IMG/VR virus record: IMGVR_UViG_3300023109_001904
Location: 1 to 32,346 of that record
Direction: 5' to 3' (one strand)
DNA from: a virus
DNA: 32,346 nt
The stretch's first letter is position 1, and every line of letters starts with the position of its first letter. Positions 4,889 through 25,409 of this stretch are shown here, piece after piece. A program made the translations under genes and the position numbers. The notes under the pieces were generated by a model. It was given only the letters and a program-made list of their open reading frames with translations. It was not told where the DNA came from and did no database searches.

Positions 4889-6196
4889 ATGAGCGTAGAA
4901 GGTAAAAAGAACTGGGCACCTAATCCAGACATTACTGAATCCGAACTTAAAGTAATGCGTGAAGAAGTACTTGATCGTATTATTGTTGCACGGGTAGGAC
5001 TTCTTCTTAAGCACCCTTTCTTTGGTAATATGGCAACACGCCTTAAAATTCAAGCCGCAGACGACTGGTGTCCTACAGCAGCCGTAGATGGCAGAAACTT
5101 ATTTTTTAACACTCAGTTCTTTAATGCAATGGACAATAAAGAAATTGAGTTTGTTATTGCACACGAAATTTTACATTGTGTATTTGATCACTTAGAACGT
5201 AGAACTTGGCAAGGACGCAACTTAGATGCTATGCTGTCTAATATTGCACAAGACTACATTGTAAACAACATTCTTGTAAGAGACAGCATTGGTACTAAGC
5301 CTAGAATCGTTGACTGTTACCAAGACTTTAAATACGAAGATTGGACTTCAGAAGAAGTTTATGATGACTTGTTTGAAAAGTATGACGAAGATCAACTTAA
5401 CGCATTAGGCGAATTACTAGACGAGCATATTGACTGGACTGACGGTGATGGTAACGAAGGTGCTTCATCTGGTAAAGATGGCAAAGATGACGGTGAAGGT
5501 AAAGAAGGCAAGAAGCCTACTTACACTAAAGACGAACTTAAAAAGATACGTGACGAAATAAAAGAGAACATGGTAACAGCCGCACAGAGTGCAGGTGCTG
5601 GTAATGTTCCTAAAGGTGTCGAACGTATGATCAAAGAGCTTACGGAGCCTAAGATCAATTGGCGTGACCTGCTTCGTCAGCAAATTCAATCAACAATTAA
5701 AAGCGACTATACATTTAGTCGTCCTTCACGTAAAGGTTGGCACACTGGTGCTATACTGCCTGGAATGAACTTCCAAGATACTATCGACTTATGTATTGCA
5801 ATTGACATGAGTGGCTCAATTGGTAACTCACAGGCTGAAGACTTTTTAGGTGAAGTAAAAGGTATTATGGATGAGTACAAAGATTACAACATTAAGTTGT
5901 GGTGCTTTGATACTGGTGTTTATAATGAAGAAGACTTTACTGCCGCAGACAGCCAAGATTTAATGTCATATGAAATCTTAGGCGGTGGTGGTACTGACTT
6001 TATGTGTAACTGGACATACATGAAAGACCAAGGCATTACGCCTAAAAAGTTTTTAATGTTTACTGACGGTTATGCTTGGGATAGCTGGGGAGATCCCGAT
6101 TACTGTGATACAGTGTTTATTATTCATAGTAATCACAATAAAGAACTATTAGCCCCATTTGGAGTTACAGCTCATTATGAAGCTCAAACAGCCTAA
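4889..6196 (+). CDS. metallopeptidase-like / VWA-domain protein (DUF2201 type), MoxR partner
   Basis: Two-part protein of 435 aa. The N-terminal domain carries HEILH (residues 92-96), the zinc-peptidase-like signature of the DUF2201 N-terminal domain. A charged Gly/Lys/Asp-rich linker (about 185-215) follows. The C-terminal domain is von Willebrand A-like with a MIDAS site: D306-x-S308-x-S310 (DMSGS), T369 in GGGGTD and D393 in FTDG. This family is encoded beside MoxR ATPases in bacteria, which fits the gene just upstream. The role in phage infection is unknown; a chaperone- or protease-like system acting on virion or host complexes is an inference. The start is fixed by AAAGGA 8 nt upstream of 4889. 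Confidence 0.85.
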   Translation: MSVEGKKNWAPNPDITESELKVMREEVLDRIIVARVGLLLKHPFFGNMATRLKIQAADDWCPTAAVDGRNLFFNTQFFNAMDNKEIEFVIAHEILHCVFDHLERRTWQGRNLDAMLSNIAQDYIVNNILVRDSIGTKPRIVDCYQDFKYEDWTSEEVYDDLFEKYDEDQLNALGELLDEHIDWTDGDGNEGASSGKDGKDDGEGKEGKKPTYTKDELKKIRDEIKENMVTAAQSAGAGNVPKGVERMIKELTEPKINWRDLLRQQIQSTIKSDYTFSRPSRKGWHTGAILPGMNFQDTIDLCIAIDMSGSIGNSQAEDFLGEVKGIMDEYKDYNIKLWCFDTGVYNEEDFTAADSQDLMSYEILGGGGTDFMCNWTYMKDQGITPKKFLMFTDGYAWDSWGDPDYCDTVFIIHSNHNKELLAPFGVTAHYEAQTA

Positions 6197-7686: not shown

Positions 7687-8910
7687 ATGGCATTGCGATT
7701 ACGAAGAGGCACAGATGCACAAAGATTGACACTAGACGGTGTAGCTTTGCCGGTGCCGGCTGAAGGCGAATTAATATATACAACAGATACTAAAAAACTT
7801 TATGTAGGCGATGGTGCTACAACAGGTGGTATTGCTGTTGACGTTGCTAATTCCACTTTAAGTGTTGATGATTTAACTGATGTAGATATTACTACTGTTG
7901 CTCCAACAGACGGACAAAGTCTTGTATGGAACGACAGTGATAGCGAATTCCAACCAGGTGACGCAAATATATCAAACCAATCAATTAATGCATTACAAGA
8001 CGTAGATACAATATCTAACACTCCTACAGTAGGACAAGTATTAAAATATAACGGTGCTGGCTGGGTAAATGGTACAGATGTATCAGGTGGATTAATTGAC
8101 GGTGCTACATACCCTATTAACATCACAGGTGATGTATCTGGTAGCGTATTTGGCGATGATAGTTCACTAATTGTTGACGGTACTGACGGTACTATTACTA
8201 CATCTAGCATTTCGGCGCCACGAAACTTAGATTTAGCTACATTTTCTACAGACGAAGTACGTGCAGCTACGTCGAATATAAGAATATTATCTCAAACAAC
8301 TGGACCTGCTGCAGACAACGGTCCGGCGTTTGCAAGTAACACTTCAAGAGGAACACTTGCTGTTCCAACTGCTGTTGATAACGACGATGCTATATTGTCA
8401 TTATTAGCTACAGGATATACTGGAAGTACTTACCAAACAAAAGGACTTTTTACTTTTAATGTATCTGAAAATACTGTTGGAACAGAAGCATATCCAGGTA
8501 GACTAGATATTAGTCTACTAGATGACAACGGTGCGTATGATGATGCATTTGCCCGATTAGAATCAAATGGTATATTTACAGTAAGAGCAATTCAAACACC
8601 AGGTATATCAACTACAGATAAAACTGGACTACTTGCTAAAGTAAGTGGCGGAATAGGTCTACAAGGTACAATAGTGTACGATACAACACTTGGTTGTTTA
8701 AGTTATTATCATGATACAGATGGCTGGAACAATGTATTAACTGGAAACAAGCCAGTTGAAACTACATCATTCATTAAGCCAGGTGTATATGCAGATGACG
8801 CTGCTAGAGATGCAGCAATTCCTACTCCAACAGCAGGTATGATGGTGTTTAACTCGACAGGTACTAAATTCCAAGGTTACACAGGTAGTGCTTGGGTAGA
8901 CTTAAACTAA
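7687..8910 (+). CDS. tail-fibre-like structural protein
   Basis: A 407-aa protein with typical phage fibre design. The N-terminus has the RRGTDAQR...GELIYTTDTKKLYVGDG motif found in many fibre and tropism-determinant proteins. A long Asp/Thr/Gly/Ser-rich repetitive middle follows (VDDLTDVDITT, ALQDVDTISNTPTVGQVL). The C-terminus is the short module GMMVFNSTGTKFQGYTGSAWVDLN (about 385-407), which recurs at the ends of fibre proteins. It probably forms part of a trimeric fibre or baseplate appendage that contacts the host surface. It has a late-type promoter at 7644 and a strong terminator directly after it. Fibre sequences diverge quickly, so the exact role is uncertain. Confidence 0.8.
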   Translation: MALRLRRGTDAQRLTLDGVALPVPAEGELIYTTDTKKLYVGDGATTGGIAVDVANSTLSVDDLTDVDITTVAPTDGQSLVWNDSDSEFQPGDANISNQSINALQDVDTISNTPTVGQVLKYNGAGWVNGTDVSGGLIDGATYPINITGDVSGSVFGDDSSLIVDGTDGTITTSSISAPRNLDLATFSTDEVRAATSNIRILSQTTGPAADNGPAFASNTSRGTLAVPTAVDNDDAILSLLATGYTGSTYQTKGLFTFNVSENTVGTEAYPGRLDISLLDDNGAYDDAFARLESNGIFTVRAIQTPGISTTDKTGLLAKVSGGIGLQGTIVYDTTLGCLSYYHDTDGWNNVLTGNKPVETTSFIKPGVYADDAARDAAIPTPTAGMMVFNSTGTKFQGYTGSAWVDLN

Positions 8911-8913
8911 TAA

Positions 8914-9519
8914 CTAAACTTTATAATTAAAAAAGTCTACGTCTCGTGCGTGGACTTTTTTTATGGCTGCAATACTTGCACTATTGAAATGTTCTTTAAA
9001 TTCCCAATGATCGTATCCTGTAATGTCAGGTAATGCTAATTCACATCCTAGATATTCTTGTACAGGCTTTAAATCTTCTTCTAGTGTTTCTGCTTTACAT
9101 ATGTAATCAACCCATTCGTTGTTTACATTAATAAAGTCTACTTGATTAGTAAAGCGATTAAACCATCTTGGAAATTCAAAAGGTACATCTGGGTTACAAT
9201 AATCTGCAACCCAATCGTTAATAGGTTTAAGTTCTAAAACTGTCTGCCCGTTCCAGTCTAGCCAATATCCTTCGTCACGTACTTTGCGGTATAAACTAAA
9301 CACTCTTTGCCACGGGTTACGCACTACACTAATAGTTTTAGCATGTGGATAGTGTTCACGTACTGTTCCTAAGTGCGGATGATCTACCATCCAATCTACG
9401 TGTGATAATACATTAAAATTAGGATGCAACCAATCTGCAATAACCTTCTTCATTGCCATGCCAGTTCTAGGAACATGTACATATGCTAGTTCAGGTTTAT
9501 CTATATAGAATGTTCCCAT
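8914..9519 (-). CDS. sulfotransferase-family protein
   Basis: A 201-aa protein with both PAPS-binding signatures of the sulfotransferase fold: the 5'-phosphosulfate loop (VHVPRTG, residues 14-20) and the 3'-phosphate site (VRNPWQRVFSLYR, about 66-78, with R67 and S75). It is short for the family but complete across these elements. It would transfer sulfate from PAPS to a hydroxyl or amine of an unknown acceptor, such as a glycan, lipid or small molecule. It is the last gene of a three-gene - strand unit behind a desaturase, whose stop overlaps its ATG (TAATG). Its 3' end doubles as a terminator hairpin. The acceptor cannot be read from the sequence. Confidence 0.82.
   Translation of the reverse strand: MGTFYIDKPELAYVHVPRTGMAMKKVIADWLHPNFNVLSHVDWMVDHPHLGTVREHYPHAKTISVVRNPWQRVFSLYRKVRDEGYWLDWNGQTVLELKPINDWVADYCNPDVPFEFPRWFNRFTNQVDFINVNNEWVDYICKAETLEEDLKPVQEYLGCELALPDITGYDHWEFKEHFNSASIAAIKKVHARDVDFFNYKV
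8929..8962. terminator. bidirectional terminator between convergent units
   Basis: Six A (8929-8934), the stem GTCTACG (8935-8941) with CGTGGAC (8949-8955, one G-T wobble), a 7-nt loop and seven T (8956-8962). It is symmetric, so it can stop transcription from both sides. It lies inside the last codons of the sulfotransferase gene on the - strand, whose stop is at 8914. Confidence 0.85.
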
Positions 9520-10289
9520 TAATCAACTTTGATTAATTTAATTAATGATCCCATTAAGTCCCATTCCCACCACTTTTCTCCAGTGTGGTAATTTCCAGGC
9601 TTGGCGTGATGATTGTTATGCCAACCTTCACCTAAACTAACAATATTTGCAATCCAACTATTGGAACTACGGTCTTTTGTTTCATGATTTCTATAACCAT
9701 GATAATGTCCAAGTACGTTAACTACACCGATTAAATGTACTGTCATACTTGCAGGAACAACATATGCAAATAACCATAGTACAGGATCTATTAATAGTAA
9801 TACAATAGAAAATGCAAATATAATTTTAAAGTAGTTTTTAAAAATAAACTTATGTGTAGGGCTACGCATTAAATCTTTAATATATTTTACAGGAATATTT
9901 GGCACTTTCCAATCGTATCCTAACCAAACTTTAATTGCTTCTTTAAAACTAAACTTGTCATTAGCGTACGAACTATGCGGGTCGCCTTCTCTATCTGATT
10001 GTGCGTGATGTTGCCTGTGTAACGCTACCCAACTCATTGTTGGGCCAACTGTACTGATGACACTAATATAACTTAGTACGGTTTCTAGCCACGGGTATGT
10101 TTTAAAACTTCTGTGTGTCAATAACCTATGCAGAGTTATAACACTGCTAATAGGTCCGATAATTAACCAAGAAACAGCAGCAATTGCAAATAGATAATAT
10201 TGCTGTGTATATATTGCATATGCAATTGCTGGAATAGTTACTATGTGGTTAAATGCTTGTAACAATCTTACTTTAGTATTTAGATTCAT
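9519..10289 (-). CDS. membrane acyl desaturase (delta-9 type)
   Basis: A 256-aa membrane protein with the three histidine boxes of acyl-CoA/acyl-lipid desaturases: HRLLTHRS (from H54), HRQHH (91-95) and HNNHH (224-228). Hydrophobic segments lie at about residues 12-50, 75-90 and 155-195. The di-iron centre introduces a double bond into a fatty acyl chain, here probably in host membrane lipids. The start at 10289 is chosen over an in-frame ATG 8 codons upstream because GGAGGAAGG directly precedes it and its ATGA overlaps the stop of the upstream gene. The acyl substrate is unknown. Confidence 0.9.
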   Translation of the reverse strand: MNLNTKVRLLQAFNHIVTIPAIAYAIYTQQYYLFAIAAVSWLIIGPISSVITLHRLLTHRSFKTYPWLETVLSYISVISTVGPTMSWVALHRQHHAQSDREGDPHSSYANDKFSFKEAIKVWLGYDWKVPNIPVKYIKDLMRSPTHKFIFKNYFKIIFAFSIVLLLIDPVLWLFAYVVPASMTVHLIGVVNVLGHYHGYRNHETKDRSSNSWIANIVSLGEGWHNNHHAKPGNYHTGEKWWEWDLMGSLIKLIKVD

Positions 10290-10906
10290 TTTCCTTCCTC
10301 CAACTCTTTCCATTCAGAATGAGTGATTGTCTTTGGTGCCCAATTATCGAAGGCTCCTTGTTTTGTCTCTTTCCATACAAAATTTTGCCAACACTTTTGC
10401 ACGTTCCATGGACAAGTCTGTATATATCCATTTGTTCCTAATGCCCATGCACCTTCACTGGCAATGTCCATGTGCTTACACCATACTTTCCAAAATCCTC
10501 TGTTAGGTCTTGCAGGACGATTTTGCATCGTAATTAAATAGACTTCATATGTATTTACTTCTTCTAGTGCATCTATTAGTTTACAAGTACAACGGAATCC
10601 GTCCGTCATGTCAGTGGCAGTCATTCTAAAGTCTGGAAATGTATATAACCTATTAATCTGTTTGGCAACATTAGGAGGATATCTACTGTCGTTAAACACA
10701 CCTCCCATTACCATAGGTTTACCGGTACTAGTCTGGTAAAGCACACCGTATCCCGAGTGTTCTTCTATCTTTAAATTTTCTTTAGTATAATTGTTACGAA
10801 GCCAATTATCTTCCTCTAAGCATATGTCTCTTACCTTTTCAAACTCAGGTGTAGATTCGTAATAAATTATAACGTGTGTGTTTTCTAAGTCGTATCTATA
10901 AGCCAT
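10286..10906 (-). CDS. hypothetical protein, possibly GNAT-like, 206 aa
   Basis: First gene of the desaturase/sulfotransferase unit. The segment MVMGGVFNDSRYPPNVAKQINRLYTFPDFR is followed by a beta-alpha pattern (TYEVYLITMQNRPARPNRGFWKVW) that loosely recalls GNAT acyltransferases. I do not see a clear acetyl-CoA loop, so this is only a fold guess. There are many Trp and Cys residues in the second half. It is coupled to the desaturase by an ATGA overlap and diverges from the operon starting at 10945. Confidence 0.7.
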   Translation of the reverse strand: MAYRYDLENTHVIIYYESTPEFEKVRDICLEEDNWLRNNYTKENLKIEEHSGYGVLYQTSTGKPMVMGGVFNDSRYPPNVAKQINRLYTFPDFRMTATDMTDGFRCTCKLIDALEEVNTYEVYLITMQNRPARPNRGFWKVWCKHMDIASEGAWALGTNGYIQTCPWNVQKCWQNFVWKETKQGAFDNWAPKTITHSEWKELEEGK

Positions 10907-10944
10907 TATAACGTATTTACTTAAATATATTTAAGGAGTAGTTA
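10907..10944. promoter_or_regulatory. divergent promoter region with a 14-bp palindrome
   Basis: This 38-bp gap separates two divergent units. It holds the perfect palindrome TTAAATATATTTAA (10921-10934). On the + strand, AAGGAG (10933-10938) is the ribosome site for the gene at 10945. On the - strand, AGTAAATA (10922 back to 10915) is a weak late-type match 7 nt before the ATG at 10906. The palindrome may reflect two overlapping divergent late-type elements or an operator. Confidence 0.45.
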
Positions 10945-11550
10945 ATGTTGAACAATATTGTAACACAGTTAAATTTTAAATTAAACATTGACGAACTACG
11001 ACAGTACTATACTAAATTAGATACAGACTACCAACATTTAGACTGGAGTTGGGAGAAGTGCGGTAATGACATTGTTAAACAATGGCGAGATGCTGCTTAT
11101 AAAGATCCTGCTAACTTACTAACACACGGATGGGCTATACAGAGTAATTTAAAAGATATTACATTACCGTGTCCGCCTTGGAATATCAGCACACACGAAA
11201 CTGTGGAATATCGAAATACAGAATTAGCATTTGGTATAATTAGCCGCTTGCAAGATAAGATACCGTTTGGATATCGTTGGAGTGTAAGCGTACAACCATC
11301 AGGTGGTAAAGTTAGTGTACACACTGATGCAAATGACGAATATACCGTGTGGTTACCTATTCACACTAGTGGGTCTGCAATAACATTTGACAAAGAATAC
11401 GAACTAGTTGCAGACGGTAGTGCTTACTTACTAGATACTACACAACCACATCATACATTTAATTCTAGTAATGAAGACAGAGTTACTATTATTTTTAGAT
11501 TAAAACAAGATAATCTCAAAGAGTTATTATCTTTGGAAGGCACTATATGA
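10945..11550 (+). CDS. 2OG-Fe(II) oxygenase-like, aspartyl/asparaginyl hydroxylase type
   Basis: The 201-aa product has the cupin-like metal triad of the aspartyl/asparaginyl beta-hydroxylase family: H126-x-D128 (SVHTDAN), H170 (or H169) in LLDTTQPHHTFNSS, and R179 for 2-oxoglutarate in EDRVTIIFRL. Such enzymes hydroxylate an unactivated C-H bond using O2 and 2-oxoglutarate. It heads a five-gene + strand operon with another 2OG-like protein, a kinase-like protein, a radical-SAM enzyme and a third 2OG-like protein, joined by short overlaps. AAGGAG is 6 nt before the ATG. The substrate is unknown. Confidence 0.78.
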   Translation: MLNNIVTQLNFKLNIDELRQYYTKLDTDYQHLDWSWEKCGNDIVKQWRDAAYKDPANLLTHGWAIQSNLKDITLPCPPWNISTHETVEYRNTELAFGIISRLQDKIPFGYRWSVSVQPSGGKVSVHTDANDEYTVWLPIHTSGSAITFDKEYELVADGSAYLLDTTQPHHTFNSSNEDRVTIIFRLKQDNLKELLSLEGTI

Positions 11551-12191
11551 AACATCTAGCATACTTGCCTATAGACATTGATGTAGAATGGCCCGACGAA
11601 GAATTAATACTAAAATGGTTTGAGGATCATAAATTATTAGACGACGACTATTGGGAGTTAACATCTAATCGCCATGCATGGGCAATGACTTCAACTTGTA
11701 AGGAACCTAAAGACTGGCGTAGATTTGATAAAGAAATGTGGGACAATCGCAGAACTGATGGAGTAAACGAAGGAGTATTTTTTCATCCTAGTTTTGAAGA
11801 AACATTTCCTAGTCTTGCAAACTGTATTAGACAGTTACCATTTAAACAATTAACCGTAAGCGGTATGCTTTATCAACTAGGTCCTATTCCAAATCATCAA
11901 GATGCACATGACCCTCATAATCCCTTAGAGCCTAGACGTTATACAATTTACTTAACAGATCCAAAACATAATACGTTTTATTTTAGTAAAGAAGAAGACG
12001 GAGAAAGGTACTATCCAAATATTCATAGTCCTTGTTTTGCATTTAATAATAACAATGTATGGCATGGGGCATCAGAAACACATAGACCAAAAATAATCTT
12101 AACTACCGCTGGTATTATAGATAATGAAAAACACGCTGCATTAATTAATCGCAGTTTAGAAAAATACAAAAACAAGGCATTATATATATGA
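11547..12191 (+). CDS. 2OG-Fe(II) oxygenase-like protein
   Basis: The 214-aa product has a double-stranded beta-helix metal pattern: H117-x-D119 (PNHQDAHD), H173 in NNNNVWHGASETHR, and a basic residue (R180 or K182) for 2-oxoglutarate. The first half is helical and Trp-rich and would form the family-specific substrate cap. The ATG overlaps the previous stop by 4 nt and its own stop overlaps the next ATG, so it is part of a tightly coupled operon. It is not closely similar to the neighbouring oxygenase outside the motif. Confidence 0.7.
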   Translation: MKHLAYLPIDIDVEWPDEELILKWFEDHKLLDDDYWELTSNRHAWAMTSTCKEPKDWRRFDKEMWDNRRTDGVNEGVFFHPSFEETFPSLANCIRQLPFKQLTVSGMLYQLGPIPNHQDAHDPHNPLEPRRYTIYLTDPKHNTFYFSKEEDGERYYPNIHSPCFAFNNNNVWHGASETHRPKIILTTAGIIDNEKHAALINRSLEKYKNKALYI

Positions 12192-12895
12192 ACTACAATT
12201 ACTATTGGAACGATATTCCAGGAGAAGGAAAGTGTCGCAACAATTTAATTTACACAAGTCTTATGAGCGAAGACACTCAGATATTTTGTCAATGGTTTTA
12301 CAATGATAAAGTTTATCATAAAGGACAAAACGAAGTAGTTGACACTAACCTAATGCAAGAAAAATTTGACAGAGAAGTCGAATACTCGTTGCTTATGGAA
12401 AAACACTATCCGCAACACGTTCCTGTAATTAAAGATATTAACACAGAAACCCGTAAACTTTATTTAGAAGTTGACGGAATTGACTTTTGGAATCGTGCTA
12501 ACTGTAGTGTTGAAAACTACGATAGTGTACTACCTGACTGGCGCGAACAGATGATTGAAATATTACAAGCATATAAAGACTTAGGATTATACAAGTATAG
12601 TTTACATCCTAGCAGTTACTTCATAATAGACGGAAAGTTAAAGAGTTTCAATCATTTTTTCTGTTATCATGAAAATGAAGGTCCAATTAAGATTTCAGAT
12701 CATGCTAGTCATATATACAGTACAAGACAAGACATAATGCGTACACAAATAGAGACTATGGGCATAAGTTGGGATAACCCAGAGCCGCTAAATACGTTAC
12801 AACATTTATGTTTTGAAAGTTTTAGAAAAAACTACACTGACGATTTTATAGATGCAGCAAAACAAATATACAATAAAGGAACTAATAATTGTTAG
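12188..12895 (+). CDS. kinase-fold-like protein with degenerate active site
   Basis: A 235-aa protein that looks like a reduced protein-kinase/phosphotransferase fold. A helix with a conserved-looking Glu (REVEYSLLMEKH, about 62-73) is followed by a strand-hinge region (KLYLEVDGIDFW). Then comes a catalytic-loop-like segment, LHPSSYFIIDGKLKSFNHFF (139-158). In active members this reads HxxN...xxDF; here Ser (S143) stands for the Mg-binding Asn and Asn (N155) for the metal-binding Asp. It may therefore be a pseudokinase or a very divergent kinase. It sits between a 2OG-like gene and a radical-SAM gene. Confidence 0.6.
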   Translation: MNYNYYWNDIPGEGKCRNNLIYTSLMSEDTQIFCQWFYNDKVYHKGQNEVVDTNLMQEKFDREVEYSLLMEKHYPQHVPVIKDINTETRKLYLEVDGIDFWNRANCSVENYDSVLPDWREQMIEILQAYKDLGLYKYSLHPSSYFIIDGKLKSFNHFFCYHENEGPIKISDHASHIYSTRQDIMRTQIETMGISWDNPEPLNTLQHLCFESFRKNYTDDFIDAAKQIYNKGTNNC

Positions 12896-14106
12896 ATCGA
12901 ATTAAAATAATTGGTATAAATCAATTTACGCAGAAAGCAATTGATACTATACGTTCTGCAATAATAGAAGTAGGAGGTACTGAATTATTGCCTACTGTTA
13001 GTCTATGTCATCACTGTCATTACCACGTTCCTGCATTGCGGTATCATAAAGACAACCAAGTATTCATAGCTAAACATTGTGAAACACACGGTACAAGTCA
13101 CCATATGATCGAAAGTGATTACGAATTTTATCGTAATATATACTATACACAAGATAATCCTCAATATAACTTTAATGGTGGAGTACTAATAGAAGTAACT
13201 GATAGATGTAATTTAGCATGTCCACATTGTTATCACGAACCTGATAATGCACTTACAGACCAATCAGCTAAAAAAATTATTGAACAAATTAAAACATGGC
13301 CACTCGGCAACGATGCTATACATCGTGTCATCCTTAGTGGAGCAGAGCCAACATTACGAAAAGACTTTAATAGTCTTGTTGAACAAATTAATGCTTTAGA
13401 TCCTAGCATTACTGTATCTGTAATGACTAACGGTATTCGGTTTTCAGATAGAAACTATGTAAAGTCGGCAATTGCAAGCGGATTAAGTAGTGTTAACATA
13501 GGATTGAATCATCCAAGTTATAATGATCACAAAGTAATTAGAAGAAAACAACTTGAAGCTATTAACAATGCACATGCAGAAGGCTTAGATATAAGTTATA
13601 TCAGTTATACTATGATGACTCTACAAGAAGTTGATTTTATAATGAACGAAATATGTAGCAACGAATGGCGAAGTAAAAACTTTAGGATTCGTTACGGAGC
13701 AGATATCGGTCGCAATCCTGGGCAAATTCGTATATTTGTAAGTGATGTATATAAAGCAATCGAACAATGGTGCAAAGATAACAATAAATCATTTGAAAGA
13801 ATTATAGAAGCTGACAACAACATATATCATGTTATGGCCAGAGTAGACGGCAAAGACATAAGAATTATTCAATGGTGTGACGAAACAGACATTGACATGG
13901 AAGAACTTCGTTCTGGACCGTGGTGCGATTTTGTACCGGGCGGTATAACAAATTTCTTGCATCAAATTATTAGAAGAGATGCTTGGAAAAATAAAGGCAA
14001 TACCCTGCCTGATAAGCCAATTGAACGATATATGTTTACTAGAAATCCAACTAAAGAACCATTAGATTTACTAACATTGCACAATGAAGAGACACCAAAT
14101 GATTAA
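12889..14106 (+). CDS. radical-SAM enzyme with N-terminal zinc-type domain (Tes/MJ0619-like)
   Basis: A 405-aa enzyme. The N-terminal domain has C40-x-x-C43 and C64-x-x-H67 (KHCETHG), the layout seen ahead of the radical-SAM core in the MJ0619/tetraether-synthase group. The core has CxxxCxxC at C107, C111 and C114 (DRCNLACPHC), followed by a variant GGEP motif (SGAEPTL, about residue 146). The enzyme group joins or alkylates unactivated carbon; the substrate here is unknown. TTG at 12889 is taken as start because AAGGA (12876-12880) lies 8 nt upstream and no ATG occurs before the zinc-type domain. It overlaps the previous gene by 7 bp. Confidence 0.82.
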   Translation: MLDRIKIIGINQFTQKAIDTIRSAIIEVGGTELLPTVSLCHHCHYHVPALRYHKDNQVFIAKHCETHGTSHHMIESDYEFYRNIYYTQDNPQYNFNGGVLIEVTDRCNLACPHCYHEPDNALTDQSAKKIIEQIKTWPLGNDAIHRVILSGAEPTLRKDFNSLVEQINALDPSITVSVMTNGIRFSDRNYVKSAIASGLSSVNIGLNHPSYNDHKVIRRKQLEAINNAHAEGLDISYISYTMMTLQEVDFIMNEICSNEWRSKNFRIRYGADIGRNPGQIRIFVSDVYKAIEQWCKDNNKSFERIIEADNNIYHVMARVDGKDIRIIQWCDETDIDMEELRSGPWCDFVPGGITNFLHQIIRRDAWKNKGNTLPDKPIERYMFTRNPTKEPLDLLTLHNEETPND

Positions 14107-14908
14107 AGGTATTAATAATCAACCATACTTAGATATGGAACAGCACGTAGACATGGAAACGTTTGAACAATTGCAACCAGAAATTATGCGAGGATTTGCT
14201 GAAGCAAGATGGTTTGCAAAAGAAGGTACTTGGATGAAACCAGGCTTTGAATTTAAAGACATGAGTTACACACTTAATTGGAAACCTATATACGCTGCAA
14301 TGGAAGAATTTGAAGCATTGCCCGACGGCGATCCTATTAAAGTAGAGGGTATGAAAATATGGCCTACAGACTTTAAAGACTATAAACAACGTAATGTAAT
14401 TACACGTTATCTTAAAATGGCAATGGAAGCATACGACCCTTACATCTATTACTTCTTACACGAAGAAGGTGAATGGGATGATCGTCCTGAAGAGAAAAAA
14501 CAAACAGAAGAGTCAAAGTTCTTTCCTAATACAATGAAATGGTTACAAGGATTTAAGGACAACGAAATATTTGAATCCTTTGGACGAGTAATGTTCTTCC
14601 ACTGTGAAGCAGATGGACTACCGTTTGAACATAGAGACTTAGGCGCACACAACGGCACTTGGCCTAAAGACAAGTATGAACCGCACAACAACGAATTTAT
14701 ACACATACGTCCAGATACACGTAACCAGTTTTATATATGGGATCCTGACAAAAAGATGAAACACGGCATTAACACTCGTGCGGCTTTTTGGAATGATCAA
14801 GATTGGCATGGCGGTAATCGTGTTATGTGTCCTACATACGGTATGCGTATTGACGGGAAGTTTACTGAAGCATTTAGGGAAAAATTAAAACTAAGTGGAA
14901 CTTACTAA
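14084..14908 (+). CDS. 2OG-Fe(II) oxygenase-like protein
   Basis: The 274-aa product has the metal pattern H183-x-D185 (FEHRDLG), H242 (WNDQDWHGG) and R255 (TYGMRIDG), with the usual beta-rich spacing between them. The N-terminal 120 residues are helical and acidic. It ends the operon that starts at 10945 and overlaps the radical-SAM gene by 23 bp. An alternative ATG at 14099 would shorten it by five residues. Its last 18 bp overlap the end of the convergent oxygenase gene. A paired action with the upstream radical-SAM enzyme is plausible from context only. Confidence 0.7.
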   Translation: MKRHQMIKGINNQPYLDMEQHVDMETFEQLQPEIMRGFAEARWFAKEGTWMKPGFEFKDMSYTLNWKPIYAAMEEFEALPDGDPIKVEGMKIWPTDFKDYKQRNVITRYLKMAMEAYDPYIYYFLHEEGEWDDRPEEKKQTEESKFFPNTMKWLQGFKDNEIFESFGRVMFFHCEADGLPFEHRDLGAHNGTWPKDKYEPHNNEFIHIRPDTRNQFYIWDPDKKMKHGINTRAAFWNDQDWHGGNRVMCPTYGMRIDGKFTEAFREKLKLSGTY

Positions 14909-15463
14909 GGCTGTAAAAGTTAAAAGAAACTTAGTTTCAAGTCCTGCATTGAATCCGGCGTGCCAGCTATCTAACTTAGAATATTTGTATATCGCACCTT
15001 GCGGTTCCATATAGAAACATTCGTCTTCAACCATAAACGCTTGACCAGGTTTTGGTTTGTCTATAAAACAAATGCACCTTACTAAATCGTTAGGATCGTA
15101 ATCTTGTACTACGCCCGCATCTTCATCTAAACTAGGGATATCCCAGTGCCAAGGTGCGCACTTTCCTTGACGTATTTCACTGATAAAACTTTGTAATACT
15201 TTGCCGCCAATTGTATCATTTATTGTTGTATGAATATCATCACTGTATTGATGCCCTGGTTTATAATGAAAAAATTCTACACTATCGCCATCAGTGTAAC
15301 CACTCTTGTCTGCTAGTTGTTTTTGTTCTAAATGATGTTGATAAAATTTATGTGTGGGATCAAGATCTCTATTACCAGTAAACGGTGTCACAGTATGTTG
15401 CATACATTCATTAATTAATGAATCACATATATCTGTAGGTATTTTTCCTAAATAATGTTTCAT
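14891..15463 (-). CDS. 2OG-Fe(II) oxygenase-like protein
   Basis: The 190-aa product has H106-x-D108 (APWHWDIP) and H168 (LDSWHAGFN), with K178 in the place of the usual Arg that holds 2-oxoglutarate. The segment FIDKPKPGQAFMVEDECF between them matches the beta-helix core of this superfamily. It is the second gene of a two-gene - strand unit, and its ATG overlaps the stop of the hydroxylase-like gene upstream. Substrate unknown. A Lys in place of Arg occurs in some members, so activity is not excluded. Confidence 0.7.
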   Translation of the reverse strand: MKHYLGKIPTDICDSLINECMQHTVTPFTGNRDLDPTHKFYQHHLEQKQLADKSGYTDGDSVEFFHYKPGHQYSDDIHTTINDTIGGKVLQSFISEIRQGKCAPWHWDIPSLDEDAGVVQDYDPNDLVRCICFIDKPKPGQAFMVEDECFYMEPQGAIYKYSKLDSWHAGFNAGLETKFLLTFTALVSST

Positions 15464-16176: not shown

Positions 16177-17445
16177 ATGAACAATAAATCATGTACGTTT
16201 TGTATGCACCCATTTACCGGATTAGCTACTAGAGAAGACGGCGCTATTAAAGTATGTTGCCGAAGTGCGCCGATTGGTTATATACAAAATGAAACGTTAG
16301 AAGAAGTTTGGAATGGCGATAAAATGCGTGAAGTACGTAGGCAAGTACTTAACAACGAACGTCCAGATGTATGTAAACCGTGCTTTGACCTTGAAGATCA
16401 GGGCGTAGAGAGCTTACGACAGCGTCATATAGCAGGGGTAATACCCGAAGCTAGGGTCAACTTATACCCTGATGCATTAGACGCATTAGACGAAGATTAC
16501 AGCATGCCGTTTGAGCTTCCTACTATGGAAATTAAGCTCAACAACTTGTGTAATTTAAGGTGCCGTATGTGCAATCCTTTAGACAGTACAAGTTGGAAAG
16601 ACTGGGACCAAGTTACAGATTTTTACAAAAAAGAAGACAACATATTAATTCCAATTGTTGATGCACTTGTAACTAAACCAGGGCAATATATTGGACCGTT
16701 TGACAACTCAGATAACTGGTGGTTGTCATTTGAAAAACTACTACCGTTCTTTAGACGTGTAGAGTTTGCTGGCGGTGAGCCTCTAATGGATCCATACCAT
16801 TATAAGATACTAGACAAACTTGCAGAGTACGGCGACAACATTGAACTAAAGTACGCTACAAACGGTACTACGCTAGGTATTAAAGGTGGTAGAACAATCC
16901 ACGACTATTGGCCTAAGTTTAAAAGCATAGCTGTAAACGTAAGCATAGACGGTGTATACGACACGTATGAATACATTAGGGGCAATGGTAAATTTAGTGT
17001 AATAGAAGAAAACATCGAAGTGTTTAAGAGCTTTCCTAATGTAAGTCGTGTAGTTGGTGCATTTACTGTACAAGCAAATAACATTATGCAGATAGACAAA
17101 GTTATTGACCACTTTATTAACAAAATGGGGATTATATTTTACTCGCATAGAGTAAGTTATCCTATGAGTCTAAGTGCGCAAGTATTGCCGCCAGAACTAA
17201 AACAAAAAGTAATAGCACGTTTAGAACAAATGAAAACAGAAGTATTAGAATATCCTTTAGTAAAGCAACACAAGCTATTAGAAACTGTAACACTACAACA
17301 AATACAAGATAATATTAATTTCTTAGAGTCAAAGTGTATGTACGAAACGCATTGGCAAGACTGTATAGAGTTTAACAAGCGTTTAGACAAAACTCGTGGG
17401 CAAGACTTCCTTGCAGCTAATCCAGAGTTTACACCATATGTTTAA
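16177..17445 (+). CDS. radical-SAM enzyme with N-terminal twitch/SPASM-like Cys domain
   Basis: A 422-aa enzyme with an unusual domain order. An N-terminal Cys-rich auxiliary domain (C6, C9, C27, C28, C66, C69) precedes the radical-SAM core (C125, C129, C132 in CNLRCRMC; AGGEPLM at about residue 200). In most SPASM/twitch enzymes the auxiliary cluster domain is C-terminal. Proteins with this permuted layout are annotated as twitch-domain radical-SAM proteins in marine phages. The second copy in this window is at 19118-20503. The auxiliary cluster suggests peptide or complex substrates; none is identified. It heads the + strand unit that ends at 19173. Confidence 0.82.
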   Translation: MNNKSCTFCMHPFTGLATREDGAIKVCCRSAPIGYIQNETLEEVWNGDKMREVRRQVLNNERPDVCKPCFDLEDQGVESLRQRHIAGVIPEARVNLYPDALDALDEDYSMPFELPTMEIKLNNLCNLRCRMCNPLDSTSWKDWDQVTDFYKKEDNILIPIVDALVTKPGQYIGPFDNSDNWWLSFEKLLPFFRRVEFAGGEPLMDPYHYKILDKLAEYGDNIELKYATNGTTLGIKGGRTIHDYWPKFKSIAVNVSIDGVYDTYEYIRGNGKFSVIEENIEVFKSFPNVSRVVGAFTVQANNIMQIDKVIDHFINKMGIIFYSHRVSYPMSLSAQVLPPELKQKVIARLEQMKTEVLEYPLVKQHKLLETVTLQQIQDNINFLESKCMYETHWQDCIEFNKRLDKTRGQDFLAANPEFTPYV

Positions 17446-18247: not shown

Positions 18248-19173
18248 TAAGCAAATGGCCACATCAAGATAGTATACATGTTGAATGGAATATGGGCAAA
18301 CGCTGTAATTTAGATTGCGGATATTGTCCTGCTGAAATACACGATAACTTTAGCCCACATACACCCTTGCAAACATTTAAAGATGCAATAGATAAGTTAG
18401 TAGAAATAGGCAAACCTGTAAGACTTAGTTTTACAGGCGGCGAGCCATGTGTGCATCCTAATATTAAAGAAATATTAGCATACGCCCGAGATAAAGTTGA
18501 CTGGATTAATGTAACAACAAACGGAACATTGCCTTTTACCTTTTATGAAAGTTTACCAGTAAATCATTATGTATTCAGTATACACTTTGATAACGAAGTA
18601 GTTGATAAAGTAATTAATAATGTTTTAATTTGGGCGCAAGCAAACGAAGTTGATAACTTACCTTTTCAACTTAACATAATGGCACACCATGAATACATGG
18701 ACAAGGTAAAACATGCTACTACTGTATTTAACGGACACAATATTCCATATGTAATTAGACGCATACGCTGGACAGAAGCCGATAATAGAGATTGGTTTGA
18801 TGACATGCGTTATGATCCAAAAGATTTAGAATGGATACTTAATCAAGCATCAACAGTAAAGCCTAATGTTATCATTGACGACAAAGAAGAAATGCATGCC
18901 AATGATGTTATTAAACACAAATTAAATCAATTCGAAGGTTGGAAATGTAATGCAGGTATTGAAAGTTTAATGATCAACTGGGACGGCGAAGTTCATCGTG
19001 CTACTTGTAGAGTAGGCGGAAGTTTAGGTAACATTTATAAAGGAACTTTTGAACATCCTAGTCAGGCTGTAATATGTACACGTAAATGGTGTACTTGTGC
19101 CGCAGATATTCCGTTAACTAAAGTAAATGAGCCAGTTCAGGAAATATTGCCGCTGCGTTTAATCCACGAATAG
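18235..19173 (+). CDS. radical-SAM enzyme with C-terminal Cys domain
   Basis: A 312-aa enzyme. The core motif is at C24, C28 and C31 (RCNLDCGYC), with GGEP at about residue 68 (SFTGGEPC). The C-terminal domain has C238, C258, C281, C286 and C288 (TRKWCTCAAD), enough for an auxiliary Fe-S cluster. It is a paralogue of the gene at 31362-32345: both have WxCNAG, then a strand and a later Cys cluster. The last 56 bp overlap the end of the convergent radical-SAM gene on the - strand. Substrate unknown. Confidence 0.8.
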   Translation: MHKVISKWPHQDSIHVEWNMGKRCNLDCGYCPAEIHDNFSPHTPLQTFKDAIDKLVEIGKPVRLSFTGGEPCVHPNIKEILAYARDKVDWINVTTNGTLPFTFYESLPVNHYVFSIHFDNEVVDKVINNVLIWAQANEVDNLPFQLNIMAHHEYMDKVKHATTVFNGHNIPYVIRRIRWTEADNRDWFDDMRYDPKDLEWILNQASTVKPNVIIDDKEEMHANDVIKHKLNQFEGWKCNAGIESLMINWDGEVHRATCRVGGSLGNIYKGTFEHPSQAVICTRKWCTCAADIPLTKVNEPVQEILPLRLIHE

Positions 19174-20503
19174 CATCAAGTTTGTTCACATACTCTTTAA
19201 AACCAGAAAGTAAATGGCTGTTATCTGCTGAATCCATATGTGCTAACAAGCCTTCCCATTTAGGCCAACCAGATGGATTATGTATCCAAAAATCATCGTC
19301 TTGTGTATAATTTTCCCATAGCCATGTTTTAAGTTCTGCAAAACGTTCACGCACTTCTTGTTTGTCTTGTTCTGGAAGTATTGTAATATTAAGAAACGTT
19401 GGTATGTGTACTAGGTGCATATTAACTAATCCGCCGCCCATTTGTACTCCGCCTACTAAACCAATATTCATCTTTTTAAAATTACTGTTTATTTTCCACT
19501 TTATAAAATCAGGCATATGTTTGATATTGAAGATTTGTACAGCCGTTGCCATACTAATATGTATGTTGTCAGGTGTGTTATCTAGCATATGCAGTGTGCG
19601 TTCTACATCAGCAAATTTTGTAGGGAAGCGAATATAATCATCACGTTCAAAACTTGCATCAACACTAACAGCAAATTTAACTTTATGAAACTTTGACCAT
19701 AACTCAATTAATTCTTCATCTACAAGTAATCCGTTTGAGTTATAACGTAATAGTATTTTATCTTGATAGCCTTGGCGAATAATTTCTTTAATAAACATTT
19801 TGTGTTCTTTAATCATTAGAGGCTCGCCTCCAGCAAAGTACACTTGTCTTAGGTTAGGAATTTGTGCATTAATTTCTTTCCAGAATGAATCTTTCTCGTG
19901 CCACTTGTTATTAAACAATTTGCGATCCCATTGCATTTGTCTTTTAACTTCAGGATCTTGTAGTACAGGAATAAGTTTTTTATGGTCCGCAACCCACTTA
20001 CTTGAATCATGCGGGCTACACATTACACACTTAATGTTGCACGTATGTCCTAATCTTAGATCCAAATATTTTAAATTTTCTGGCACAGTGCCGTCTTCTT
20101 TTGTTTGACGAATAAGTTCAGGAATGTCTACGCCATTATCGTCTCGGTGCCAAGTGCCTGTTTCCCAAATACGTTTACTTACAATGCCTTGGCTTTCTTC
20201 TTTAAAACAACCTGTACAACTTGCAGGGATTTCACCATTAAGCATAGTTGTACGTACACTTTTCATATAATCGTTATTCCATGCTTCTAAAGGAGTGTGT
20301 TTACCAAAGTTTGCAGGTTTACCATCTTCCATTTTCACAAGACCTACTTCATGATTATCGCCTGCGCCGCTTGCATTAGATGTGCAACATAATCGCATAT
20401 CACCATTTGGTCTAGTTGCCATATGTATCCAAGGTAACACACAAAATGTTTCTGTGCCACTTACTTCTGCAATTTCAGCTTGATACTTTTTTAGGTCAGA
20501 CAT
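19118..20503 (-). CDS. radical-SAM enzyme with N-terminal twitch/SPASM-like Cys domain (second copy)
   Basis: A 461-aa enzyme with the same permuted layout as the gene at 16177. The N-terminal Cys domain (C21, C39, C40, C96, C99) precedes the core (C155, C159, C162 in CNIKCVMC; AGGEPLM). Shared features with the other copy include ...RPNGD/REDGA...CC..., a WN segment, and ATNG/NSNG after the core. AAGGA lies just before the ATG. It follows another radical-SAM gene in the same - strand unit with a 12-bp gap. Two such enzymes in opposite operons suggest related but distinct substrates. Confidence 0.82.
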   Translation of the reverse strand: MSDLKKYQAEIAEVSGTETFCVLPWIHMATRPNGDMRLCCTSNASGAGDNHEVGLVKMEDGKPANFGKHTPLEAWNNDYMKSVRTTMLNGEIPASCTGCFKEESQGIVSKRIWETGTWHRDDNGVDIPELIRQTKEDGTVPENLKYLDLRLGHTCNIKCVMCSPHDSSKWVADHKKLIPVLQDPEVKRQMQWDRKLFNNKWHEKDSFWKEINAQIPNLRQVYFAGGEPLMIKEHKMFIKEIIRQGYQDKILLRYNSNGLLVDEELIELWSKFHKVKFAVSVDASFERDDYIRFPTKFADVERTLHMLDNTPDNIHISMATAVQIFNIKHMPDFIKWKINSNFKKMNIGLVGGVQMGGGLVNMHLVHIPTFLNITILPEQDKQEVRERFAELKTWLWENYTQDDDFWIHNPSGWPKWEGLLAHMDSADNSHLLSGFKEYVNKLDAIRGLNAAAIFPELAHLL

Positions 20504-22587: not shown

Positions 22588-23201
22588 CAGACAATATATA
22601 TCACAGATATGTAAGCGTACCGTTTGAATATCCTAAACCAGAAATTTTTAACGAAGGTTCAAAAAATTATACGGCACTGATAGAAGACAAATACATTCAT
22701 CCTCCTTTTAGAGAATGGATAGAAAGTGTTGGTCTAACTATATCAAATGTATTAGAAGGATTTTATACACCGCCAAACGGCGGCAGAGTGCCCTTACATT
22801 CAGATACATCTTCCATGCCCGGCGATAATGATTGTTGTAAACTAAACTTTACATGGGGGTCGCCAGATAGTACAACCCAATGGTATAAAATTAAACACGA
22901 CTCTAAAATAAAAAAACATTACTTAGACGAAGCAGACGCTAATCAAAAATTTTATAAAGCAGGTATTAAACCTGATATAGATATAGAGTATGTATTATTT
23001 GCAGATCATGATGATGCTGATTTAGTACATGAAGTTGTCATTGATCGTCCCAGTTTACTTAACATTAGCCAATTGCATTCTACATGGAACCCTTCGCCTG
23101 TTGAACATCGTTGGACATTATGTTTTACACTTCTAGAAAATAGAAAACCATTAACTTTCCAACGTGGATTGGAAATATTTAAAGACTACATTAAGGACTA
23201 A
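22584..23201 (+). CDS. 2OG-Fe(II) oxygenase-like protein
   Basis: The 205-aa product has H72-x-D74 (VPLHSDTSS), H165 (ISQLHSTWN) and R176 (EHRWTLCFTLL). The spacing between the first and last ligands is long, with a charged insert (HDSKIKKHYLDEADANQKF), which may form a lid. It lies in the middle of the aminotransferase/amidinotransferase operon, 1 nt before the aminotransferase start. Substrate not known; an amino-acid-like molecule is suggested only by its neighbours. Confidence 0.7.
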   Translation: MTDNIYHRYVSVPFEYPKPEIFNEGSKNYTALIEDKYIHPPFREWIESVGLTISNVLEGFYTPPNGGRVPLHSDTSSMPGDNDCCKLNFTWGSPDSTTQWYKIKHDSKIKKHYLDEADANQKFYKAGIKPDIDIEYVLFADHDDADLVHEVVIDRPSLLNISQLHSTWNPSPVEHRWTLCFTLLENRKPLTFQRGLEIFKDYIKD

Positions 23202-23202
23202 A

Positions 23203-24354
23203 ATGAAATACACAGGATTGGTGCCAGAGGTACAACCAGACAATATGGAATTAGAACTAGGATTACCATATTGGAAATTTGGTGAGATACGAGATGGAAG
23301 AAAAGTTATTGATCCGATTTTACAATACGGGTGTTATGTATTAGGATATCATAACCAAGAAATTATTGATTATGTATACGACACTATGAAAAATAACAAA
23401 CCAGAAATAGGCGAACATTTTATGCCTAACACTGATACGTTGAGATTAAATCATCTTAGCTTTCAGCTCGCTGACAGAGTACGTGAAATTTCAGGAATGA
23501 ATTCTTTTTACGCCCTTAGTGGGTCTGATGCTAATGAAGGAGCGGTTAAACTTGCATGTGCGTACCAGTTCCAAAAAGGAAATTACCACAAAAAAACTAT
23601 TGTAGGATTTTTAGATAGTTACCACGGTAGTACAAATTTTACTTCAAGTATTGGGCATGATAATTTTATGGATGCACCATTCTATACCCTAGACCCTAAT
23701 CCTTCAGTAAAACGAATACCTAGAGATACTAGTAAGTTTGACGAAGTTGATTGGGATTCAGTAGCAGCAATAGTTATTGAAACTTGTGCATACGGAGGCG
23801 ACATGACTCCTCCTAGTGCAGAGTTTTGGGCAAGTTTAGATGAAGTAAGAACAAAACACGATGTAATAATAATTATTGATGACATTTTTATGGGTGGCGG
23901 CAAGTCTGGAACTTATATTGGTTGGGAAAATATGAACATACGTCCTGATATTTCAACAATGGGTAAAGCAATTACTGGAGGATTTTTTCCGCTAAGTATG
24001 GTGCTGTTTAATGATAAAATTAGAGATGCATTACCTAAAAACTTTAATTGGGAACACGGGTTTACATATTGTTTTAGTTTGCCAGGAGTTGCAGCCGCTG
24101 TAAAATATTTACAAATTTTAGAACGTGATAAGTTATTAAATAATCACAATAGTATAGTAGAACGTGCTACAAAAATATTTGAAGATGCTGGTTATACAGT
24201 ATTTTACAGATTTGGATTACACTATAAAGTTAGAAAGCAACACGAGACCTGGCTAGAGAAACATTTTTATGTTGTTCCAATAGCTGCAGATGACGAATAC
24301 TTCGAAGCATTAGAGGAGAACCTACAATGGTTTACACAGAATACGACCCACTAG
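23203..24354 (+). CDS. PLP-dependent class III aminotransferase
   Basis: A 383-aa enzyme with the class III (ornithine/acetylornithine/GABA-type) signatures: SGSDANEGAVKLA at about 106-118, the cofactor Asp pair D226-D227 in IIDDIFMGGGKSG, and the Schiff-base lysine K255 in STMGKAITGG. These enzymes move amino groups to or from omega-amino acids, diamines or amino sugars. The ATG at 23203 is chosen over an upstream in-frame start because AAGGA lies 5 nt before it. The gene is somewhat shorter than usual (about 400-450 aa). It precedes an amidinotransferase, which suggests that it prepares an amine acceptor; this is inference. Confidence 0.88.
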   Translation: MKYTGLVPEVQPDNMELELGLPYWKFGEIRDGRKVIDPILQYGCYVLGYHNQEIIDYVYDTMKNNKPEIGEHFMPNTDTLRLNHLSFQLADRVREISGMNSFYALSGSDANEGAVKLACAYQFQKGNYHKKTIVGFLDSYHGSTNFTSSIGHDNFMDAPFYTLDPNPSVKRIPRDTSKFDEVDWDSVAAIVIETCAYGGDMTPPSAEFWASLDEVRTKHDVIIIIDDIFMGGGKSGTYIGWENMNIRPDISTMGKAITGGFFPLSMVLFNDKIRDALPKNFNWEHGFTYCFSLPGVAAAVKYLQILERDKLLNNHNSIVERATKIFEDAGYTVFYRFGLHYKVRKQHETWLEKHFYVVPIAADDEYFEALEENLQWFTQNTTH

Positions 24355-25409
24355 AAGAAGTTATTGTTGCAGACTCGTATGCAGGTGGTGACTTAGATCA
24401 TTTATTTCCAGATGAGAACTTGTCACAGTTTAATCAAATACTAGATGAAACAAAAGAAGACTTTGACAAATTAGCAGACTTCTTAAAAGCAGGCGGAGTC
24501 ACAGTTAAAAGACCAGATGTACATCAGTATGATGGACATATTGCAATGCCAGGGTTTGATGTAAAGTTTCCAATGGGGCCAACAGTTCCTAGAGATCAGT
24601 ACAAAGTAGCAGGTAAAACTATTGTGCAAACATACACTAGTTTAACTGATAGATACTTTGACGGTCTAAGTTACTATAATATATTTTCAGATATGTTTGA
24701 CCAAGGGTATAATTGGATTAGTCAAGCGGCGCCGCCGTTAGTTCCTGTTACACCGAGCGATATATGGTATATGCCAGGACAAGATCCTGGAACTAATATT
24801 TACTATAGTAAATTAAATGACAGAGTATTATTTCATACAGCAACTATGTTTCCAGTAGGTGATAAAATTATCATAGACAGTGACGGTCCCGGCAGTAAAA
24901 AAGGATACGAATGGCTTAAACGTAATCTACCCGAATTTGAATTTATAAAAAACGTAGGCGGACACGCCGAAAACTATGGTCATATTGATCACGGGTTTAT
25001 TATGATCGATGACGAAACAGTTTTACATGCTGGTATAAATTGGGTTCCTCAAGCACTACGACATTTAAAATTAATTGACGCTAAAGAATTTATTCCTTCG
25101 CCAAAAACAAAGGAATACAAAACAAACTTTATTGCAAAGGGCGGCAGATACGAATTAGACTGGGTTGAAAATTATTTAGGTAATTGGACAGGTTACAATC
25201 AAGACTGCTGTTTTGATCTTAATGTATTAATTGTAGATCGAAACAATATAATATTCGGGCGCGAATTACCAGACTTATTTAAATTTTTAAAAACACACGG
25301 TATTGATTGTCACACTGTTGATCAAAGACATATGTTATTTTGGGAAGGAGGCATTCACTGCGGTACACTAGATACTAAAAGACGAGGCAATAAAAGAACC
25401 ATTATATGA
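24327..25409 (+). CDS. arginine:amine amidinotransferase family enzyme
   Basis: A 360-aa protein with the L-arginine amidinotransferase layout. The catalytic Cys is C345 in GGIHCGTLD, a near match to the family's GGxHCxTLDxRRxG. The catalytic His is probably H219 in YGHIDHGF, the equivalent of GHIDATF. Family members transfer the amidino group of arginine to an amine, making guanidino compounds and ornithine (for example guanidinoacetate in animals). The ATG at 24327 has GAGGAG (24313-24318) 8 nt upstream. It overlaps the aminotransferase by 28 bp and the SpeD-like gene by 4 bp. The acceptor amine is unknown. Confidence 0.88.
   Translation: MVYTEYDPLEEVIVADSYAGGDLDHLFPDENLSQFNQILDETKEDFDKLADFLKAGGVTVKRPDVHQYDGHIAMPGFDVKFPMGPTVPRDQYKVAGKTIVQTYTSLTDRYFDGLSYYNIFSDMFDQGYNWISQAAPPLVPVTPSDIWYMPGQDPGTNIYYSKLNDRVLFHTATMFPVGDKIIIDSDGPGSKKGYEWLKRNLPEFEFIKNVGGHAENYGHIDHGFIMIDDETVLHAGINWVPQALRHLKLIDAKEFIPSPKTKEYKTNFIAKGGRYELDWVENYLGNWTGYNQDCCFDLNVLIVDRNNIIFGRELPDLFKFLKTHGIDCHTVDQRHMLFWEGGIHCGTLDTKRRGNKRTII

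Follow-up and report, generated by a model that had tools for sequence, protein, structure and literature searches.

What does an enzyme related to tetraether synthase (Tes) do in a virus, encoded in an operon with three proteins resembling 2-oxoglutarate (2OG)-dependent oxygenases and a degenerate kinase? The question is raised by positions 10945–14908 of IMG/VR virus record IMGVR_UViG_3300023109_001904, the whole of which (32,346 bases, hereafter the window; most likely a fragment) was analyzed. An initial annotation, made from the sequence alone, had described the region in these terms, and its coordinates and gene content were confirmed: five plus-strand open reading frames (ORFs) occupy the region (Table 1; genes are named by their first position in the window), with successive end-to-start overlaps of 4, 4, 7 and 23 bases.

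A viral enzyme with a Tes-like predicted fold

The product of 12889, a radical S-adenosylmethionine (SAM) enzyme, comprises a rubredoxin-like segment (residues ~34–75), a radical-SAM core (~99–245) and a shorter C-terminus. It matched PF04055 at 8.5e-19 and, over residues 36–75, PF23545, the HMPTM/MJ0619 N-terminal zinc ribbon, at 1.7e-10 (40.7 bits, gathering threshold 27). From 132 viral proteins, 67 full-length, non-redundant rows were obtained; two of these, from locus L096, were omitted, and the alignment comprises the remaining 65, all of which matched both families (PF23545 at E ≤ 0.001). The motif CX2C-X20-CX2H, at residues 40/43/64/67, is kept in 65/65 rows with a spacing identical to that of the M. 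jannaschii enzyme; the available part of PMC9433317 gives the Tes rubredoxin motif as C9X2C12X20C33X2H36. The radical-SAM CX3CX2C cysteines (C107, C111 and C114) are likewise invariant across the 65 rows.

When searched singly against the PDB, the sequence retrieved Tes (7TOL, M. jannaschii GDGT-MAS) at 4.6e-14, followed by MoaA at 1.8e-5, and a profile of the 65 viral relatives retrieved Tes at 6.3e-32, followed by SkfB at 7.7e-10. An AlphaFold2 model generated with the 65-sequence alignment reached a predicted local distance difference test score (pLDDT) of 91.9 and a predicted template modelling score of 0.90; an earlier model from 8 close sequences (pLDDT 60) was not used. Foldseek matched the model to 7tol at 1.1e-19 and to MoaA at 1.1e-10, and VIA-align 2 ranked 7tom first (Z 31.7, root-mean-square deviation 3.5, 335 residues), ahead of 7tol (29.6), NifB (18.1) and MoaA (17.5). 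In a fold search of viral predicted structures the best match reached 4.2e-9, none coming near Tes in the PDB. Identity as a MoaA-like or ordinary radical-SAM protein was ruled out because Tes leads at the level of sequence, profile and fold. The kinship claimed by the initial annotation was thus borne out: the predicted structure contains the Tes-type N-terminal domain and MoaA is no closer. Sequence and model together indicate that 12889 encodes a branch of the Tes/MJ0619 radical-SAM superfamily.

Predicted loss of the auxiliary clusters

The bond formed by Tes ranks among the most difficult known in biology, and the enzyme holds the radical on an auxiliary cluster. According to the available part of PMC9433317, its N-terminal cluster is bound by C73, C77 and C80 plus a histidine, and its C-terminal cluster has a labile Met439 and gives an intermediate with the substrate carbon bonded to a cluster sulfur. 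In the viral enzyme the corresponding ligands appear to be missing. The window protein has no cysteine between residues 67 and 107, and across the 65 viral rows the N-cluster segment is cysteine-free in 46, contains a single cysteine in 18 and has a pair in one. Past the core, no cysteine is common to all 65 rows: C295, C330 and C346 are found in 12/12, 12/12 and 10/12 rows of one clade of viral enzymes (A) and in 32/53, 12/53 and 6/53 rows of the other (B). Ten cellular relatives were examined, four of which were included in an alignment; a GCPxxCGxC-type motif precedes the core in 10/10, and 6–9 cysteines follow it. The window protein has 405 residues against 473–574 in these relatives, and in one of 482 residues the profile alignment ends at residue 361, so that some 120 C-terminal residues have no viral counterpart.

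The fold comparison does not place cysteines, and cluster absence is read from the sequence. On that reading both Tes auxiliary ligand sets, [Fe4S4]N and [Fe4S4]C, are absent, including that of the cluster holding the substrate radical in Tes. Because of this predicted absence, and because the Tes equivalog model of NCBIfam (NF045702) gave 74 bits, far short of its 450-bit cut-off, the viral protein is judged not to be a Tes by membership. With no [Fe4S4]C, the radical-holding strategy of Tes would be unavailable and inter-chain sp3–sp3 coupling of the Tes kind unlikely, although GrsA/GrsB are thought to cyclise lipids using one cluster (available part of PMC11186832). An identity as a Tes-type C–C coupling enzyme is not supported.

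A virus-specific and widespread branch

The number of loci recovered from IMG/VR rose from 9 by single-sequence scan to 21, then at least 156, by profile scans, with 80 of the 156 profile matches listed. After dropping 12 loci that repeat a contig, 89 loci (numbered with L, the window included; near-copies L019–L022 and L024 were kept) were compared. They hold 132 family proteins, which form the two clades, with adjacent copies at 36 loci. At L121 (G429:168070–169113, on a 200-kb record), the radical-SAM match carries one internal TAA.

A species-genome collection yielded 0 relatives in a first scan and, in a second, 43 loci each covering part of the query only; neither scan gave a full-length relative. 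Among 398 Pseudomonadota genomes, 6 contained a distant relative at E ≤ 1e-20, in all cases within model positions 5–255 of 354, and profiles of the 12188 and 14084 proteins each found 0/398 (positive control, run for 12188 only: 11/20 virus records). Matches of the radical enzyme in cultured phages were confined to the core, at <35% identity, and a large set of such phages contained no match for 12188, 14084 or 16177. Searches of the open-licence PMC library gave no paper describing a Tes relative in phages. The branch was therefore found only in viruses among the collections scanned here, and is common there, being carried by uncultured tailed phages; the earlier view of the combination as unexpected in a phage needs revision.

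Partner proteins of the radical enzyme

No Pfam model matched 12188, and a profile of its family reached protein kinases over the catalytic region with a best E of 6.2e-6. In 31 aligned relatives the HRD Asp was found in 0, the catalytic-loop Asn in 1 and the DFG Asp in 7; all three are missing from the window protein. The protein is predicted to be a pseudokinase, in keeping with the degenerate kinase first proposed. A second kinase-like paralogue (cluster c147) occurs at 53/89 loci.

As for the 2OG-like proteins, 10945 matched PF05118 (Asp_Arg_Hydrox) with 29.4 bits against a cut-off of 22.6. No Pfam family was matched by 11547 or 14084, and the 14084 family profile found nothing of weight in the PDB. 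Beyond the genes listed initially, two more, 14891 and 15460, lie on the opposite strand directly past the operon, and the 15460 family profile matched the beta-hydroxylase 7v4f at 2.8e-14. The HxD...H triad is intact in all aligned relatives of 10945 (11/11), 11547 (7/7), 14084 (91/91), 14891 (12/12), 15460 (63/63) and 21651 (54/54), as is the distal Arg or Lys where assessed (R179 of 10945, 11/11; R255 of 14084, 91/91; K178 of 14891, 12/12; R137 of 15460, 63/63). The sole exception among the 2OG families tested is 25770, which has HxH in place of HxD.

A near-obligate pair and a movable radical gene

Within the 89 loci, the clusters of 14084, 12188, 15460 and 16177 were present at 75, 74, 65 and 57, respectively. 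Clade B loci hold 12188 in 65/65 cases and 14084 in 64/65, and clade A loci in 12/27 and 13/27. Because a search anchored on the radical enzyme is biased, separate searches were conducted with the pseudokinase (best 80 of 474 matches) and with 14084 (best 80 of 311); contigs overlap between the two sets, and the counts cover loci flanked by 8 kb or more in both directions, after removal of near-copies. With the pseudokinase as anchor, 14084 was present at 33/33 loci, the radical enzyme at 19/33 and 16177 at 28/33. With 14084 as anchor, the pseudokinase was present at 43/43 loci, and the radical enzyme and 16177 each at 35/43. Order and strand gave eight arrangements within each set. The pseudokinase and 14084 are near-obligate partners; the radical enzyme accompanies them frequently and is movable.

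The window order from 9519 to 14084 is kept at L169, L172, L173, L179, L180, L191 and L237, which have no radical gene and in which the gap between 12188 and 14084 is empty or holds a different radical-SAM gene. Twenty-two contigs lack the radical gene near the pair, and in 10 it lies elsewhere on the same contig. The clade A gene stands beside the pair at 10/27 loci (including L009, where the contig ends within the pseudokinase, which adjoins the radical gene) and beside a relative of 30060 at 12/27, never both, leaving 5 with neither. Six further copies were inspected: those of L323, L325, L327 and L328 adjoin relatives of 30060/31362, that of L324 is separated from them by a single gene within the block, and around that of L326 no window homologue was found within the 4 kb read. 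On a tree with several long branches, the site beside the pair implies 3 changes and the 30060 site 5. Given these site changes and the 10/22 contigs with the gene elsewhere, the radical gene moves between sites but tends to remain within the same virus. The coupling proposed initially thus holds for the pseudokinase and 14084, whereas the radical gene separates the two in some lineages and, in others, occupies a different place in the same virus. Chance is excluded because the arrangement is conserved in many other virus contigs; the operon is real and more conserved than a reading of one sequence could show.

A possible role in phage protein tailoring

We propose, with a probability of roughly 0.36, that this virus-specific, cluster-poor branch of the Tes/MJ0619 superfamily provides the movable C–H functionalising step in a phage tailoring island whose substrate is a polypeptide, tail fibre first. 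In line with family chemistry, the CX3CX2C cluster would generate a 5'-deoxyadenosyl radical that abstracts hydrogen from an unactivated carbon, with the rubredoxin-type iron possibly serving as an electron relay. The resulting radical would be resolved inside the substrate, by quenching, desaturation or cross-linking, instead of being parked on an auxiliary cluster. The 2OG hydroxylases of the island may act on the same substrate, which the pseudokinase could hold or present. If one were to guess at the polypeptide, the virus's own tail-fibre or adhesin protein would be the simplest choice, and host binding would be tuned by its modification.

A polypeptide, one of the targets suggested initially, is favoured by inference because hydroxylases, a pseudokinase and twitch/SPASM radical enzymes make up the constant partners and because a tail-fibre-like gene often adjoins the island. 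The AspH-type and twitch/SPASM radical-SAM partner families are known mainly for acting on proteins or peptides. At the 29 loci holding both a tail-fibre-like gene and island genes, an island gene is the immediate neighbour of the former at 16, and at a further 6 a single gene intervenes. In pelagimyophages, according to the available part of PMC7029224, a tail-fibre 'host recognition cluster' acquires cassettes with radical SAM genes.

Several observations weigh against a polypeptide-tailoring role. Among 392 small ORFs in 123 gaps, no conserved precursor family was found near the operon. The tail-fibre-like neighbour is present at only 29/89 loci, and the co-occurrence figures are inflated by the 10-kb flanks and by shared phage ancestry. 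The radical enzyme is dispensable, with no copy in 12 of the 22 pair-bearing contigs, which extend up to 191 kb (contigs partial), and the kinase kinship of 12188 hangs on a profile match of 6e-6. Finally, island genes of small-molecule type (class III aminotransferase, SpeD, amidinotransferase-like, Trp halogenase, AMP-binding and TauD) would fit a metabolite or glycan equally well.

Alternative substrates

A metabolite or glycan target is nearly as likely as a polypeptide. The island would then make or decorate a metabolite or nucleotide sugar, the radical enzyme altering its carbon skeleton and so changing the surface of the infected cell or a virion glycan. A UDP-sugar dehydrogenase and a sulfotransferase join the small-molecule-type genes just named in the window and its relatives, and the available part of PMC7029224 describes pelagimyophage host recognition clusters as rich in glycosyltransferases. 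However, the most conserved partners (the pseudokinase, 14084, 15460 and 16177) are not classic small-molecule enzymes; 24327 is found at only 11/27 loci of clade A and 5/65 of clade B, and the Trp halogenase 26413 at 3/27 and 1/65. Modification of lipids, another target named by the initial annotation, is unlikely. It would involve hydrogen abstraction from acyl chains and the joining, desaturation or cyclisation of membrane lipids together with the desaturase at 9519–10313 (FA_desaturase, 6.6e-23), upstream of the operon. A desaturase is reported in freshwater pelagimyophages in the available part of PMC7029224, and Tes, the nearest known enzyme, is itself a lipid C–C coupler. This possibility is weakened because the desaturase is present at 9/27 clade A loci and missing from 65/65 clade B loci; moreover, the viral sequences contain no equivalent of the ligands for the radical-holding [Fe4S4]C, and the profile alignment leaves the final ~120 residues of cellular relatives unmatched. 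To our knowledge, archaeal phytanyl lipids are absent from bacterial hosts.

Somewhat less probable still is hypermodification of DNA or tRNA, in which a base precursor would be made alongside QueE-like, PP-loop and kinase-like proteins. A QueE-like radical-SAM fragment is indeed encoded at 3–629, and a PP-loop protein (cluster c46), which we take to be QueC-like, occurs at 32/89 loci, often just ahead of 16177; yet c46 scores below the curated cut-off (19 versus 27 bits), the QueE-like gene sits among replication and structural genes outside the island, and the kinase-like protein lacks catalytic residues. The least probable explanation is that an ordinary radical-SAM gene is hitch-hiking in a hypervariable phage region and shares no pathway with its neighbours. 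Although the gene is movable and hypervariable islands shuffle genes, it was kept in the same virus after moving (10/22), and in clade B its association with the two members of the pair (65/65 and 64/65) extends across several arrangements.

A more far-reaching possibility, which we consider doubtful, is a new class of viral pathway for protein tailoring. An obligate core of pseudokinase and dedicated 2OG enzyme, found here in uncultured phages only, could be served by interchangeable Tes-derived, twitch radical-SAM and hydroxylase cassettes, and phages would diversify the chemistry of receptor-binding proteins and not only their sequence.

Organization of the window and related islands

The left third of the window carries phage replication and structure genes (the QueE-like fragment, an exonuclease, an ATPase, a VWA/HNH-annotated protein and a baseplate/tail-fibre connector). 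The protein at 4889–6196 shows ≤42.5% identity to its best isolate matches, among which jumbo phages are frequent. The putative tailoring island extends from 8914 rightwards. By family match and/or motif, the window contains eight radical-SAM ORFs (the 3–629 fragment, 12889, 16177, 18235, 19118, 20516, 29206 and 31362) and nine 2OG-like ORFs (10945, 11547, 14084, 14891, 15460, 21651, 22584, 25770 and 27831).

Table 1. Genes of the operon and its surroundings in the window.
Feature	Position	Strand	Evidence and remarks
Tail-fibre/baseplate-connector-like structural protein, island border	7687..8910	+	phrog_677, 2.8e-13
Conserved protein, 206 aa, upstream of operon	10286..10906	-	kept in 9/27 clade A loci
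Aspartyl/asparaginyl-hydroxylase-like 2OG oxygenase, 201 aa	10945..11550	+	PF05118; H126xD128...H169, R179
2OG-like protein, 214 aa	11547..12191	+	H117xD119...H173; no family match
Kinase-like protein, predicted pseudokinase, 235 aa	12188..12895	+	profile match; HRD Asp, catalytic-loop Asn and DFG Asp replaced
Tes/MJ0619-superfamily radical-SAM enzyme (predicted), 405 aa	12889..14106	+	PF04055, PF23545, fold
2OG-Fe(II)-oxygenase-like protein, 274 aa	14084..14908	+	H183xD185...H242, R255; near-obligate pseudokinase partner
2OG-like protein, 190 aa, convergent with 14084	14891..15463	-	H106xD108...H168, K178
2OG oxygenase of beta-hydroxylase type, 227 aa	15460..16143	-	profile to PDB 7v4f; H83xD85...H127, R137
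Twitch-domain radical-SAM protein (N_Twi_rSAM), frequent island partner	16177..17445	+	NF033640, 325.1 versus cut-off 170 bits

A second twitch-domain radical-SAM protein is encoded at 19118–20503 (NF033640, above the cut-off like 16177–17445), and both are widespread in related islands, in which B12-binding-type radical-SAM proteins of clusters c59 and c90 (e.g. L093:11363–12904 and L022:8073–9989) also recur. A tryptophan-halogenase family protein (26413–27846; PF04820, 8.2e-97) has more distant relatives at some related loci. Consecutive genes at 23164–25777 encode a class III aminotransferase, an amidinotransferase-like protein (a name we assume, as no Pfam model matched) and an S-adenosylmethionine decarboxylase. 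On the minus strand, 8914–10313 encodes a sulfotransferase-like protein (below cut-off) and the fatty-acid desaturase, present at 9/27 clade A and 0/65 clade B loci. The protein 10286 had no match of weight in Pfam, PHROG or NCBIfam, and nothing of note was found in a search for repeats around the operon. At L025:11109–11771 a short AMP-binding (adenylation) protein of 220 residues (PF00501, 4.6e-17) lies beside the island. Cluster c71 (L080:5661–7103) is a 480-residue family present at 49/89 loci with no Pfam match. Searches of the PDB gave no match for cluster c118 and one weak match (0.049) for c71, and in view of this no function is claimed for either; an acetyltransferase-like identity considered for c118 and 10286 was dropped.

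Significance and comparison with known systems

A natural branch that appears to keep the iron domain and fold of Tes minus both auxiliary clusters could reveal what such a minimal scaffold is capable of, and would offer a tractable test of the role of the rubredoxin site. The near-obligate pseudokinase–2OG pair, unmatched in the large cultured-phage set, marks a widespread and uncharacterised phage pathway.

The setting resembles the host recognition cluster of pelagimyophages (PMC7029224) in being a hypervariable island with tail fibres and radical SAM cassettes; neither a Tes relative, nor a pseudokinase, nor the pairing described here is named in the available part of that report. The 2OG-like proteins are akin to aspartyl/asparaginyl beta-hydroxylases (PF05118; 7v4f), through the above-cut-off match of 10945 and the profile match of the 15460 family, but the phage proteins are free-standing and occur in sets, and 14084 and 11547 fall outside Pfam families. 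With MoaA (GTP 3',8-cyclase; 1TV7, 2FB2) the radical enzyme shares the radical-SAM core; however, the alignment begins at residue 95, excluding the N-terminal iron domain, and the scores are far under those of Tes. The radical SAM (seleno)protein TrsS (NF045646) gave the top NCBIfam score and was matched in 65/65 relatives, at 92.3 bits for the window protein against an equivalog cut-off of 490. Compared with Tes (MJ0619; 7TOL, 7TOM; NF045702), the viral enzyme is shorter and phage-borne, and by sequence has neither the [Fe4S4]N cysteines nor common C-terminal cluster cysteines, but it retains the rubredoxin-like N-terminal domain, the CX3CX2C core and, in the predicted structure, the fold.

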